Source: a virus. Taken from it: a stretch of 27,390 nucleotides of DNA. Where the stretch lies: IMG/VR virus record IMGVR_UViG_3300031857_001103, positions 1 to 27,390 of that record; one strand, 5' to 3'. The notes beneath the pieces are model-generated. The model was not told where the DNA came from. It made no database searches and saw only the letters and a program-made list of their open reading frames with translations. This document shows, in pieces, positions 14,893 through 25,451 of the stretch. Each line of letters starts with the position of its first letter. Within the stretch, counting starts at the first letter, position 1. The position numbers were made by a program, and so were the translations under genes.

Positions 14893-16092
14893 TCATGCAA
14901 GCCCTGTGCTGGAAGGTATGTTCATCCCTTGAGGGACGCCAAATGCAGAAAATGGATTTGGGTATATTCCTGGAATTATGATCGGATCAGCAGCACTCTC
15001 ACCAAGTCGCGTGAGCGAGTTGAGTCGAATGAGCCGTGTCTTGCCCGAGATGAACAGATCGCTCTTTCCTATCTTTGTCTTCAGAACTATGTCATCCGCA
15101 GAGTTTATGGCAACACGACCGAGATCAGTTTCAGTCACGCAGTCTCCGAGAACCTTGGTGTACTTGTTTCCCATGATCGTCTCGCGATAGTCTCCAAGAA
15201 CAGCCACATCCCATGTTCCATATACCACCCCACGCACATCTTTAGTTGCCTGTAGGTTCACATTCCCATCCACCTGTAGGTTGAGACTTCCGCCAGGAAT
15301 GCTGCTGCCGACATAGATGCTTGCATCTCCATCGACGGTGATCTTGGCTCCTCCTCGTATGTGTACGAAATCGCTTCCTGCGATCAGTTCATAGTTGTTT
15401 CCCTTGACCTTATGAACTCTTGTACCATCGGGATTGCCTTCCCAACCGTTACCCACTTCCTCAAAACTACCCGATGGATGGTAGGTGTGATGCCTTTCCT
15501 TGCCAGGAGTATCATCCCATTCCTCGACCATTCCCGAAGGTGTGGCAAAAACCTTGTTATGAGGATACTTGGTCGCATAGGGAGTCTTTGGCTCAGACCA
15601 TCTTTGAGTATCAAAGGTATCCCATGCAACGGGAATCTTTGAGTCCACCCCATCTCTCTTGTCCTTGACTATAGTTTTTTCAGTCTGCTCTCCTGTGGCA
15701 AGTCGATTGGTATCAGCAACATCTTTTTCCTTGGGATAGGTTCCCGAAGGATCGTTGAAGCCCATCTCCTTATTGGCGAGTTCGGATGGAATTCCTCCAA
15801 CACTGAACATCACCACAGGTTGCTGTGCATTGACTCCATCACGAAAAAAACCAAATACATGGGAACCTGTGATAAGACCTGTCGGTGACTTGCCGACCCC
15901 ACTTATCGATGCGCTCGTTATGTCCTGTAGAGGATGCGCCCAAGGCAAGTTGTCAGTAGGTATTTTTCGCTTATCATCGGTGTGATACCCAAAGATGCGA
16001 ACGCGCACCCTTCCGAGTTTCAATGGATCAGCGATGTCCTCAACGACACCGAACCACCAGACAAATCCAGCCTGACCCATGAACTCTATCAT
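14893..16092 (-). CDS. 5: Baseplate central spike gp5, lysozyme domain absent (399 aa)
   Basis: Residues 10-110 match the T4 gp5 OB-fold domain: WWFGVVEDIADPLKLGRVRV, then NLPWAHPLQDITSASISGVG and a GFNDPSGTYPKEKD linker. T4 gp5 then has an approximately 165-residue lysozyme domain with an [21 protein letters not shown]-like core. Here the sequence goes straight through a short linker to the beta-helix (VHKVKGNNYELIAGSDFVHI, GDASIYVGS, LQVDGNVNLQATKDV, VLGDYRETIMGNKYTKVLGD), with its spaced V-x-G repeats. Total length is 399 against 575 in T4. The protein should form the trimeric needle below gp27. Peptidoglycan digestion must come from elsewhere or not be needed. M1 follows a 46-residue gene by 3 bases; M5 (MGQAGFVWW) is an alternative start. 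Confidence 0.93.
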   Translation of the reverse strand: MIEFMGQAGFVWWFGVVEDIADPLKLGRVRVRIFGYHTDDKRKIPTDNLPWAHPLQDITSASISGVGKSPTGLITGSHVFGFFRDGVNAQQPVVMFSVGGIPSELANKEMGFNDPSGTYPKEKDVADTNRLATGEQTEKTIVKDKRDGVDSKIPVAWDTFDTQRWSEPKTPYATKYPHNKVFATPSGMVEEWDDTPGKERHHTYHPSGSFEEVGNGWEGNPDGTRVHKVKGNNYELIAGSDFVHIRGGAKITVDGDASIYVGSSIPGGSLNLQVDGNVNLQATKDVRGVVYGTWDVAVLGDYRETIMGNKYTKVLGDCVTETDLGRVAINSADDIVLKTKIGKSDLFISGKTRLIRLNSLTRLGESAADPIIIPGIYPNPFSAFGVPQGMNIPSSTGLA

Positions 16093-22107: not shown

Positions 22108-22809
22108 ATGCCTTTGCCTACACTAGCAGTACCAAGATACCCCGTCACCATACCCTCGACAAAGAAGCAGACCACATATAGACCATTCCTCATGAGGGAG
22201 CAGAAGATGCTCTATGTCGCCCTTGAGAGCAAGGATCACAAGCAGATGATGCTTGCCATGTGCGACATACTCAAGCACTGCGTGGATGGCATCACAGACA
22301 CCAACGACATGCCCCTCTTTGACATTGAGTATCTGTTCATGAAGATACGCTCCAAATCGGTGGGAGAGACGGTTGAGGCAAAGACCAAATGCCCAAACTG
22401 CCAGTTCACCAACGACATCACGATCAATCTTGATGAAGTCAATGTCGAGTTCTCTTCAAACCATACAAAGAACATAGTCCTTGCAGACAAACTTGGCGTA
22501 GTCATGCGTTATCCTTGCGTAACCGATGCGGTGCAGAACATAGACAGTCTTGATGGAGTCGGCATGATAAAGTACATTGCCGATTCCGTCGAAATGGTTT
22601 TTGATGAGAATGGCACATACACCCGAAAGGACTTCACGGATGAGGACATCGCAAAGTTCATAGACTCTCTAAATGCCGCTCAGTTTGAGAAGATAGTCAA
22701 GTTCTACAATGAGGTTCCTCAACTCAGGAAGACCGTGAACTGCAAGTGCGTTAATTGTCAGAACGACTATGAGATATCATTCAAGGGTCTACAAGATTTT
22801 TTTATGTGA
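22108..22809 (+). CDS. 26: Baseplate hub assembly protein gp26-like with zinc ribbon (233 aa)
   Basis: The N-terminus MPLPTLAVPRYPVTIPSTKK and then YRPFLMREQKMLYVALESKD and FDIEYLFMKIRSKSVGETVE match the T4-like gp26 family as I remember it. Two CxxC pairs, KCPNCQF (about residues 94-100) and CKCVNCQN near the C-terminus, form a probable zinc ribbon. gp26 is needed for assembly of the T4 baseplate hub. The gene stands before a 61-residue ORF and the tape measure. It ends GAT TTT TTT ATG TGA, and the T7 run forms a perfect slippery heptamer (see 22797-22803), so part of the product may be made as a 295-residue -1 frameshift fusion. GGAG lies 9 bases before the ATG. Confidence 0.85.
   Translation: MPLPTLAVPRYPVTIPSTKKQTTYRPFLMREQKMLYVALESKDHKQMMLAMCDILKHCVDGITDTNDMPLFDIEYLFMKIRSKSVGETVEAKTKCPNCQFTNDITINLDEVNVEFSSNHTKNIVLADKLGVVMRYPCVTDAVQNIDSLDGVGMIKYIADSVEMVFDENGTYTRKDFTDEDIAKFIDSLNAAQFEKIVKFYNEVPQLRKTVNCKCVNCQNDYEISFKGLQDFFM
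22797..22803 (+). promoter_or_regulatory. Candidate -1 ribosomal frameshift site joining gp26 to the next ORF
   Basis: Seven consecutive T are in register as T_TTT_TTT, so both ribosomal site tRNAs can re-pair after slipping back one base. The zero-frame stop follows one codon later. A Shine-Dalgarno-like AAGGG (22783-22787) ends 9 bases before the run, close to the stimulatory spacing known for dnaX. The -1 frame continues without a stop into the 61-residue ORF, giving a 295-residue fusion. No strong downstream hairpin was seen by eye. Confidence 0.5.
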
Positions 22810-22994
22810 TGCTGTGTCATGATTCATTGGCAAACCTGTACAAGACCAACTTTGCGATGATGCAGCACCACAAATATTCCCTGAGCGACCTTGAAGACAT
22901 GATTCCGTGGGAAAGAGAAATCTATGTATCGATGCTCATGAAGCACATACAGGATGAGAATGAGCGATTGAAGCAGCAACAGCAGAAGAAGTAA
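22809..22994 (+). CDS. Small hub-assembly-like ORF between gp26 and tape measure (61 aa)
   Basis: The ATG shares one base with the gp26 stop (TGATG) and begins MLCHDSLANLYKTNFAMMQH, then HKYSLSDLEDMIPWEREIYV; the last residues are a polar Q/K tail (ERLKQQQQKK). The segment MQHHKYSLSDLEDMIPWERE is the kind of conserved motif seen in tail-assembly-chaperone C-terminal parts and in short T4-like hub proteins sometimes labelled gp51. T4 gp51 as I remember it is far longer, so no symbol is given. It may be made by reinitiation at TGATG and also as the C-terminal part of a gp26 fusion by -1 frameshifting. It sits 3 bases before the tape-measure gene. Confidence 0.8.
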   Translation: MLCHDSLANLYKTNFAMMQHHKYSLSDLEDMIPWEREIYVSMLMKHIQDENERLKQQQQKK

Positions 22995-22997
22995 GAC

Positions 22998-25055
22998 ATG
23001 GCTCTACCCCCAAACCAACCCAATAGCCTTCAAGGCACAATGCGGTCGAGAGAGATGCAGCAATATCAGGATTTTTCCATGAAGGAAGCGATCAAGACTG
23101 CCACAAAGGCAGGCTTGTTTACTGCCGTCAGTAATCAGATTGCGAATTCCACGGTTCTTCGCCGTATTCCTGGCATGGCTTCCGTCAGGGAGGGAATGGA
23201 ACTCAAGAAGAGAGAACTCTACGAGAGAACAGGAAGAGACGAGTCAGGAAGAAAACTCACCAAGCGAGAACTTGAGGACAGGGAACTGCGCCGAAAGGAT
23301 GCTGGTGCGCTTGCCTCAATATGGGAACTTCTTGATCAGGATTGGAGAAATGGCGTTCCTGTAATCATCAAGGGAATGGAATCTGCTGCATTCGCCATGA
23401 TGTCTGGTTTCGGGAGTAATGCAGCAGGAAGAGAAAGATTCCGACCCATATCAAGGGAGTATGGCAGAAGTGACAATGTCACGATTGCATCTTCGGGAGA
23501 GGGAGCATATGACATTCAAGATGAGTCTTCCGAAAAACTTCAGCGGAGAGAGGAAGCCGCAGAGCAGGAACGGGCAGATGATGCCGATCAAGACAGGGAT
23601 CAGGAGAAGGAAGAAGGCTTCTTCACCAACCTATTCTCAAAGACATTCGGATCAAGGGACAGATCAAAGAGCGGTGGATTGATAGACTCATTGCTTGGCA
23701 TAGTTGGTCCTCTGCTCGGCATATTTGGTGGAGGTGGTGGAATCATCGGAATGCTCTCTGGCATTGTCGCTCCACTCATGGGAGTTCTTGCAACCGCTGG
23801 TACCGCGATAATCGGATTCATTACACCCTTACTTCCCGTGATAATCGGAGGAATACTCGTTGGTGCCGCAGGACTATTGATTACCAAATGGATAGAGGGA
23901 TTTTTTGAAGACGAGGGCAAAGAAACACAAACAGGTATTGGAAGGGCGTATACCGTAACTGCCCAGGATGGAACCAAACGAGCAGCGACCGCACAGGAAC
24001 TTGGCACAACTGACGAAGAAATAGCATCAGGGTTTCGTATGACTGCACAAGGAGATGTTATAAATCCGAATGCATATTTCGCATCGACTGAGGGTGGGAA
24101 AGTAAAAAATCCAAAAAGCCCAAGACTATCTGCACCTTATAGAGAAACTAGAAGCGAAGCAGAAATTTTCAAATCAATGCAAGCATACAGAGAAGTGACG
24201 GGAGAAACACTCGGAGTCGAAACATTTAACAGGCTCGGAGAATTTCTCAACGCGGTGGGGGCTATACAGGCTGAACGAGATAAAGAGGGCGGTTTGAGTA
24301 GGGAAGAAGGGCTTGCCGCAGAAAAGGAAAGAAAGCCGTTCATTCAAAAACTGCGTTCTCTGGACATACTCATGGGTCAATTCAGCAGGGAATTGAATGA
24401 AACTGGAAACAACATAGATTCAGGTGCAAGGCGTGAAAGATTTATGCGAAACTGGAATTACATACGAGATCAAGCCGACAAACTGATGGAAGAAGCGGAC
24501 GGGAAAGGATTCCATCGCGCTGTAGGGAAAGCCCTTTATTATATTTCAAGACAATATACTCCATTCTCGGGTCTCATGAAAGAATTTAGAAATGCATATG
24601 GAGTAGTCACAGATTATGGAGTGACGCCTGGAAGTGCAGTAATTTCCGATGGTATATTTTCAGACAGCGTAATAGTTCCTGGTGAAGATAGTCTAACGGG
24701 GATACAACAAACAATGTCCCTTGACGGACTAAAAACTCCAATGCCCGCACAAATTCCTAGTACAACCTTGGACATGTTGAATAGTCCAGGAATGGGTGGC
24801 GAAATAATAAGCACAGAAAACGAGATGGGAACTGGTTCGATAAACGCCAAGCCAAATGGATCGGGAAATTTCGTCACAACTCTTTCTGCTGCTCTCAACC
24901 AAGCAAGAAACGGAATGATGGGTGGTGGTCAGGCTCCCGTGATCATCAACAACAATAGCCCGACAAGCAATGTGATGGCTTCCGCCAGCGCGCGAACACC
25001 CACGGGCATCGATCTGTCACCGATGTTCAATGGTGCGAGACTTGCCGCCATCTGA
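22998..25055 (+). CDS. Tail tape measure / hub protein, gp29-like (685 aa)
   Basis: Begins MALPPNQPNSLQGTMRSREM. The first 225 residues are charged and helical, rich in R, E and D. Residues about 227-300 are hydrophobic and glycine-rich (GLIDSLLGIVGPLLGIFGGG then GIVAPLMGVLATAG and TPLLPVIIGGILVGAAGLLI), enough for two or more membrane-spanning segments, as in tape measures that enter the host membrane. The C-terminus has a Gly/Met/Asn-rich stretch. It follows gp26 and the small ORF, as tape measures follow their chaperones, and would fill the role of T4 gp29 (590 residues). Codons at residues about 314-630 are markedly more A-ending (GAA, AAA, ATA) than in the flanks, suggesting a recombined segment. 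It ends 3 bases from the convergent deaminase gene with no visible terminator. Confidence 0.82.
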   Translation: MALPPNQPNSLQGTMRSREMQQYQDFSMKEAIKTATKAGLFTAVSNQIANSTVLRRIPGMASVREGMELKKRELYERTGRDESGRKLTKRELEDRELRRKDAGALASIWELLDQDWRNGVPVIIKGMESAAFAMMSGFGSNAAGRERFRPISREYGRSDNVTIASSGEGAYDIQDESSEKLQRREEAAEQERADDADQDRDQEKEEGFFTNLFSKTFGSRDRSKSGGLIDSLLGIVGPLLGIFGGGGGIIGMLSGIVAPLMGVLATAGTAIIGFITPLLPVIIGGILVGAAGLLITKWIEGFFEDEGKETQTGIGRAYTVTAQDGTKRAATAQELGTTDEEIASGFRMTAQGDVINPNAYFASTEGGKVKNPKSPRLSAPYRETRSEAEIFKSMQAYREVTGETLGVETFNRLGEFLNAVGAIQAERDKEGGLSREEGLAAEKERKPFIQKLRSLDILMGQFSRELNETGNNIDSGARRERFMRNWNYIRDQADKLMEEADGKGFHRAVGKALYYISRQYTPFSGLMKEFRNAYGVVTDYGVTPGSAVISDGIFSDSVIVPGEDSLTGIQQTMSLDGLKTPMPAQIPSTTLDMLNSPGMGGEIISTENEMGTGSINAKPNGSGNFVTTLSAALNQARNGMMGGGQAPVIINNNSPTSNVMASASARTPTGIDLSPMFNGARLAAI

Positions 25056-25058
25056 TGC

Positions 25059-25451
25059 TCAGGAAGCAGCGATGATGCCCATGTCGAACTCATGGATGCC
25101 ATCGTCCATCGTGTAGCAGATGCGATCAAAGACCTTGCCGCACCAAGGCATGCACTTGGGGCAAGGACGCGACATACGCATCTCACCGAATGAGTTGAAC
25201 CGAAAGTTCCACAACTCAAGCCCATCCCTGCGATCACACTTGAGGAAGGCATCAAGTTCGGAGTGGACTTCACCGAAGAGGTAGCCGTGCTTGACGGCAA
25301 GCGGGTGCGTCTTGAATCTATTGATGCCAACGGCAAGAATCTTGTTCTTGTGCATGATGATGCTGCAATGCTTCTTGCGGCGTGGAATCTCCATGCACTT
25401 CTCATAGGCAAAGGAAATCAACTTCTGATGTTTCGCGGGTTCCAGGATCAT
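25059..25451 (-). CDS. Zinc-dependent nucleoside/nucleotide deaminase-fold protein (130 aa)
   Basis: Shows the cytidine/deoxycytidylate deaminase zinc signature: H63-S-E65 (GEVHSELDAF) with the catalytic glutamate, and P96-C97-x-x-C100 (RPCPKCMPWC), an additional C104 nearby. Upstream, CSIIMHKNKILAVGINRFKT matches the first beta strands of this fold. At 130 residues it is a single minimal domain, shorter than T4 dCMP deaminase (about 190), and lacks its extra zinc site. The substrate cannot be read: a nucleotide-pool role (dCMP, cytidine or guanine-like) is most likely in a phage, and an RNA or tRNA editing role is possible given the tRNA cluster nearby. It faces the tape-measure gene, end to end, and follows a 50-residue ORF on the same strand. 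GGGA lies 14 bases before its ATG. Confidence 0.82.
   Translation of the reverse strand: MILEPAKHQKLISFAYEKCMEIPRRKKHCSIIMHKNKILAVGINRFKTHPLAVKHGYLFGEVHSELDAFLKCDRRDGLELWNFRFNSFGEMRMSRPCPKCMPWCGKVFDRICYTMDDGIHEFDMGIIAAS

Follow-up and report, generated by a model that had tools for sequence, protein, structure and literature searches.

A conserved slippery site at the end of gp26 in a T4-like phage contig and the probable −1 frameshift into a gp51-like extension

Tail assembly in long-tailed phages requires two forms of the chaperone at a defined ratio, and the window, the whole stretch of DNA analysed here (27,390 bases; the entire virus contig record, with T4-like baseplate and tail genes), raises the question of how the second form is made. 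Its gp26 homologue (22,108–22,809, plus strand, 233 aa) ends ...TTC AAG GGT CTA CAA GAT TTT TTT ATG TGA TGC..., and a short open reading frame, ORF2, has an ATG (22,809–22,811, plus strand) that overlaps the gp26 stop as TGATG and is a possible reinitiation site. ORF2 could be a gene of its own or the C-terminal part of a longer chaperone. Judging from the sequences of the window and its relatives, −1 frameshifting at T_TTT_TTT very probably joins gp26 to this extension.

The assignment of gp26 as a short tail assembly chaperone (TAC-N) draws on its matches to PF12322 (E 2e-55; 188 bits versus a cutoff of 24.5) and phrog_150 (E 6.6e-62) and on an AlphaFold2 model (pLDDT 90.9), and both the PF12322 domain and the phrog_634 extension of the gp26/gp51 family are present. 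The record contains a single gp26 match; as it is a 27-kb fragment, a second gene for an in-frame long form could lie outside it. An NCBIfam search returned nothing over cutoff. A sequence search of gp26 against solved structures found no relative, and in a Foldseek search of the model against the PDB the E-values alone were not significant; the TAC fold is apparent only from structure comparison. When the model was re-aligned with 997 chains, the HK97 tail assembly chaperone 2ob9 came first (Z 8.2, rmsd 3.9, 84 residues aligned), followed by 3fgx (Z 7.3) and 3klu (Z 6.9) (residues 1–94), which we take to be Bacillus-type proteins of the same family as the HK97 chaperone, then by 5ir0 (Z 4.4) and others at 2.6 or below. 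Since 2ob9 ranks first, residues 1–90 of modeled gp26 most likely adopt the chaperone fold, in agreement with T4 genetics, in which gp26 and gp51 are listed as hub assembly chaperones. Two CxxC pairs (C95/C98 and C214/C217) in gp26 resemble a zinc ribbon and are partly missing in some relatives (S-CAM1, Melnitz-1).

Close to the end of gp26, seven T bases (22,797–22,803, plus strand) stand in the T_TTT_TTT register of the gp26 frame, and the zero-frame stop TGA (22,807–22,809, plus strand) lies one codon past this slip site. From the heptamer on, no stop interrupts the −1 frame until a TAA at 22,992–22,994, and the extension (TAC-C, gp51-like; 22,803–22,994, plus strand) would add 63 codons to 232, giving a predicted fusion of 295 aa beside the 233-aa short form. 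An earlier note on this DNA had reported the register of the T run, the position of the stop and both protein lengths, and all of these figures are right on re-reading. The extension matches phrog_634 (E 9.9e-28) and is homologous to the C terminus of T4 gp51; furthermore, the phrog_150 profile continues into it, with the separate ORF2 matching the C-terminal columns 238–281 (E 1.4e-6). Among the Phe codons of twelve window genes TTT is in the minority (130 TTT, 226 TTC). The heptamer alone is not decisive, because T_TTT_TTT occurs in frame twice in the 7,073 codons of these genes; it is, however, kept in every readable locus of the relatives. The second occurrence (15,844–15,850, minus strand) lies in a baseplate-like gene (14,893–16,092), where we see no reason for its use.

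Conservation was assessed in two sets of loci. The first comprises 80 loci found through similarity to the extension, four others and the window (85 in total, 73 non-redundant), and the second 160 further loci found through gp26 similarity alone, which avoids selection on the extension; in the second set the site could be read in 159 loci (104 non-redundant), one running off its contig. Some overlap exists between the two sets, amounting to a few contigs (L010 and L034, used as queries, came from the first), and pooling them at 90% non-redundancy over 110 nt leaves 140 sequences. In the first set, all 73 non-redundant sequences have an in-frame site at the end of gp26 (T_TTT_TTC in 35, T_TTT_TTT in 24 and T_TTT_TTA in 14) with the extension in the −1 frame, and the stop follows within 0–2 codons in 70 of them. 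The same arrangement, T_TTT_TT(C/T/A) in frame and then the extension in the −1 frame, is found in 159/159 readable loci of the second set (104/104 non-redundant). The codon preceding the slip codons ends in T in 73/73 sequences of the first set, and the first slip codon is TTT in every case (TTT:TTC 73:0, versus 535:194 elsewhere in the gp26 genes of that set; p 1e-9). It remains TTT even where gp26 favors TTC, as in PhiW-14, Mendera and Atu_ph04. As the second slip codon may encode Phe or Leu (TTA), what is conserved is the slippery bases and not a Phe-Phe pair. Named phages with the site are KVP40, S-CAM1, P-SSM2, S-WAM1, Melnitz-1, phiM7, Mendera, SRB7757, Asswx_1, PhiW-14, Atu_ph04 and RHph_I1_18.

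The extension also evolves as a protein read in the −1 frame. Between the window and a related locus (L002) there are 15 synonymous and 8 nonsynonymous codon changes in that frame, versus 5 and 21 when the gp26 frame is read. The earlier note had proposed a −1 frameshift analogous to lambda G/GT, and the comparative tests bear this out: T_TTT_TTN is conserved in phase, independent starts are missing from about half of the loci, and the −1 frame is under purifying selection. Together, these comparisons establish, at the level of sequence, that the signal and the reading frame are conserved; that ribosomes actually slip here, how efficiently, and that the products help to load the tail tube onto the tape measure we infer from lambda and T4 genetics. 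Counting against the frameshift reading, the heptamer is absent in the three Ackermannviridae gp26 genes that were read, those of SFP10, 0507-KN2-1 and Vibrio 1.255.O. The Ackermannviridae gp26 ends (L095:2200–2270, L091:2266–2336 and L090:2178–2250) have no T6 heptamer, SFP10 and 0507-KN2-1 reading GAG ATT TTC ATT TAA TTTTTG; the gp51-like extension is still in the −1 frame, and in SFP10 and 0507-KN2-1 there is no ATG close to where it begins.

A Shine-Dalgarno-like AAGGG (22,783–22,787, plus strand) ends 9 nt before the heptamer and is a candidate stimulator. The earlier note placed it correctly, and the first position of the interval given there, 22,783, is the first base of this element. 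In the first set the GG of a GGN codon occupies −11/−10 from the heptamer in 73/73 sequences, and the mean pairing energy with the anti-Shine-Dalgarno end of 16S rRNA peaks at the AAGGG position (−6.5 versus a background of −0.9 kcal/mol). The amino acids account for part of this conservation. The choice of GAG over GAA before the GGN codon (28:11 at the site versus 449:1213 elsewhere, p 1e-8), in contrast, is a preference that the protein does not require.

Downstream of the heptamer the window is predicted to form a stem of 10–11 bp, with the 5′ arm about 6 nt past the heptamer (22,810–22,819, plus strand) and the 3′ arm at 22,858–22,867 (plus strand). The predicted fold has a z of −2.5, with 3/200 shuffles as good. 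At least 8 consecutive pairs in this register occur in 8/140 non-redundant sequences, whereas 300 column-wise synonymous shuffles gave 1.1 such sequences on average and never more than 4 (mean 2.4, maximum 7 under a less strict synonymous null with pooled usage). Compensatory changes are seen at three pairs among these eight sequences, within which the percentage paired is biased, since they were picked for pairing. RNAalifold across all 73 sequences of the first set found no common downstream structure, and only the clade-limited stem passes the synonymous-shuffle control; an Rfam search gave nothing relevant. The stem is missing in most relatives and is at most an accessory element. A different long stem, GCGTTAATGCA pairing with TGCGTTAATGC, begins just past the heptamer in L045 (from about L045:2492), and four non-redundant loci share pairing at a further register, 78; stimulatory stems may thus have arisen more than once.

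How much could reinitiation contribute? The earlier note had allowed TGATG reinitiation as an extra route, and the overlap is indeed present in the window, but most relatives have no ATG there (it precedes the conserved block of the extension in only 17/73) and about half have no start at all; in S-CAM1, for example, the extension lacks an ATG. Both routes might operate in the window clade: the long chaperone would come from frameshifting, some free extension from reinitiation at the ATG, and the stem could tune the balance. This would supplement the frameshift explanation and not replace it. TGATG and the beginning of the 5′ arm within the ATG speak for such an arrangement, whereas the stem is also found in relatives without that ATG (L126, L149) and free extension has no known use; we consider it unlikely. 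Unlikely, too, is the more specific possibility that in this clade the stem raises frameshifting and buries part of the ATG, which would limit reinitiation and set the ratio of short form, fusion and free extension.

If, instead, ORF2 were a separate gene expressed solely by termination-reinitiation at TGATG, the T run would merely encode a conserved Phe-Phe. Database annotation treats ORF2 as its own gene, the TGATG overlap exists in the window, and in several relatives an ATG lies close to where the extension begins. Such a gene would nevertheless need a start codon, and ATG, GTG and TTG are all missing in 40/73 relatives of the first set (before the conserved block) and in 51/104 of the second (first 14 extension codons). 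Furthermore, a Phe-Phe requirement would allow the first codon to be TTC and the codon before it to end in any suitable base, neither of which is seen, and the TTA variants lose the second Phe yet keep the heptamer. About 20 nt separate the Shine-Dalgarno-like element from the ATG, which is beyond the ordinary range of initiation. Expression by reinitiation alone is therefore very improbable. Although homopolymer runs can produce transcript slippage and the window has seven T, it is hardly credible that the frames are joined by RNA polymerase instead of the ribosome, since in 82/140 non-redundant relatives the run is just six T before a C or A, short for polymerase slippage, and tandem −1 re-pairing accounts exactly for the seven-base register and the spacing of the Shine-Dalgarno-like element.

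Under the preferred reading, −1 frameshifting by the ribosome, translation of gp26 would give the short chaperone (TAC-N) as the major, 233-aa form, and ribosomes would pause at T_TTT_TTT near its end. Pairing of AAGGG with 16S rRNA about 10 nt upstream would aid the pause, as would, in the window clade, the stem-loop that begins about 6 nt past the site. The two tRNA-Phe would then re-pair one base back, and reading in the −1 frame would continue into the 63-codon extension. The output would be a minor, 295-aa long form (TAC-NC) alongside the major form, as in lambda G/GT. This suggests a testable model of ratio control, with the Shine-Dalgarno-like element everywhere and the stem-loop in some clades.

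T4 reaches the same two forms differently. T4 gp26 corresponds to the short form, and T4 gp51 resembles gp26 but carries the same extension in frame at its C terminus, its phrog_150 match spanning the whole length including the extension. Because gp51 is in effect gp26 plus the extension in frame, T4 encodes both chaperone forms as separate genes (26 and 51), whereas the window has one frameshifted gene. Aeromonas phage 25 likewise has gp26 and gp51 as separate genes. Across the comparison, marine T4-like phages and many others retain one slippery site, whereas T4 and Aeromonas phage 25 have two genes. In Vibrio phage phiTY18 (L099:925–1653) and Campylobacter phage CP20 (L101:856–1590) one open frame ends in a gp51-like extension, as in T4 gp51. 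In T4, gp26 and gp51 have been listed as hub assembly chaperones, gp51 being required yet absent from the particle (PMC3004832), and in 2016 T4 was still listed as the exception among long-tailed phages (Atkins et al., 2016; PMC5009743).

The earlier note's statement that no such shift was known for the T4-like gp26 pair is wrong. T4-like tail assembly chaperone genes were reportedly identified, and the frameshift proposed, by Vladimirov, Gautam and Davidson (Virology 2022, 566:9–15). Theirs is the work cited in the Adele phage paper for poly-T −1 frameshift signals in the TAC-N genes of T4-like phages (PMC12846349), and in the PRFect paper for the presence, in some T4-like phages, of a short gene together with a fused long one (PMC10885494). 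The T4-like gp26/gp51 chaperones belong to the same gene family as the window pair (PF12322, phrog_150/634). Since the arrangement had been proposed there, the window is a well-supported new case and not a new phenomenon. The 2022 study reportedly found frameshifting kept in several T4-like groups, with T4 using genes 26 and 51. The present comparison goes further in the size of its conservation test, in the synonymous evidence for the Shine-Dalgarno-like element and in the clade-limited stem, the latter two being modest additions. Many annotations can now be corrected, as the extension is open and conserved but unannotated in the Synechococcus phages S-CAM1 (L003:3700–3900) and S-WAM1 (L100:1490–1680) and in Aeromonas phage Asswx_1 (L092:2199–2380). 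In S-WAM1 the start of gp26 is probably also annotated too late.

Beyond the T4-like phages, lambda G/GT and P2 E/E′ resemble the window in having a short chaperone, a −1 slip near its 3′ end, probable in the window, a short extension and a position before the tape measure, in the window a putative one. Window gp26 is longer than a lambda/P2-type chaperone, with further domains past about residue 90, and lambda uses a different heptamer. In E. coli dnaX the heptamer is preceded at about 10 nt by a Shine-Dalgarno-like element and followed by a stem-loop. The window shares this layout, but dnaX is an unrelated gene with an A_AAA_AAG heptamer in which the shift yields the shorter product. In Vandenendeviridae and Andersonviridae, a poly-T motif has been described where TAC-N ends, the −1 frame being open in every genome covered by that study (PMC12846349); these are other phage families, and their motif is GTTTTT.

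The pair is followed by a long open reading frame where the tape measure gene would be expected (22,998–25,055, plus strand, 685 aa). We found no relatives of it in viral contigs and no similarity to its P-SSM2 equivalent; a weak match to the tape-measure family phrog_167 (E 0.0088), together with its position, gives weak support for its being the tape measure. In Rhizobium phage RHph_I1_18 the open reading frame close behind the pair is annotated as tape measure. On the minus strand at 25,059–25,451 there is a 130-aa open reading frame with HSELDA and PCPKC motifs, which by eye resembles a deoxycytidylate deaminase.
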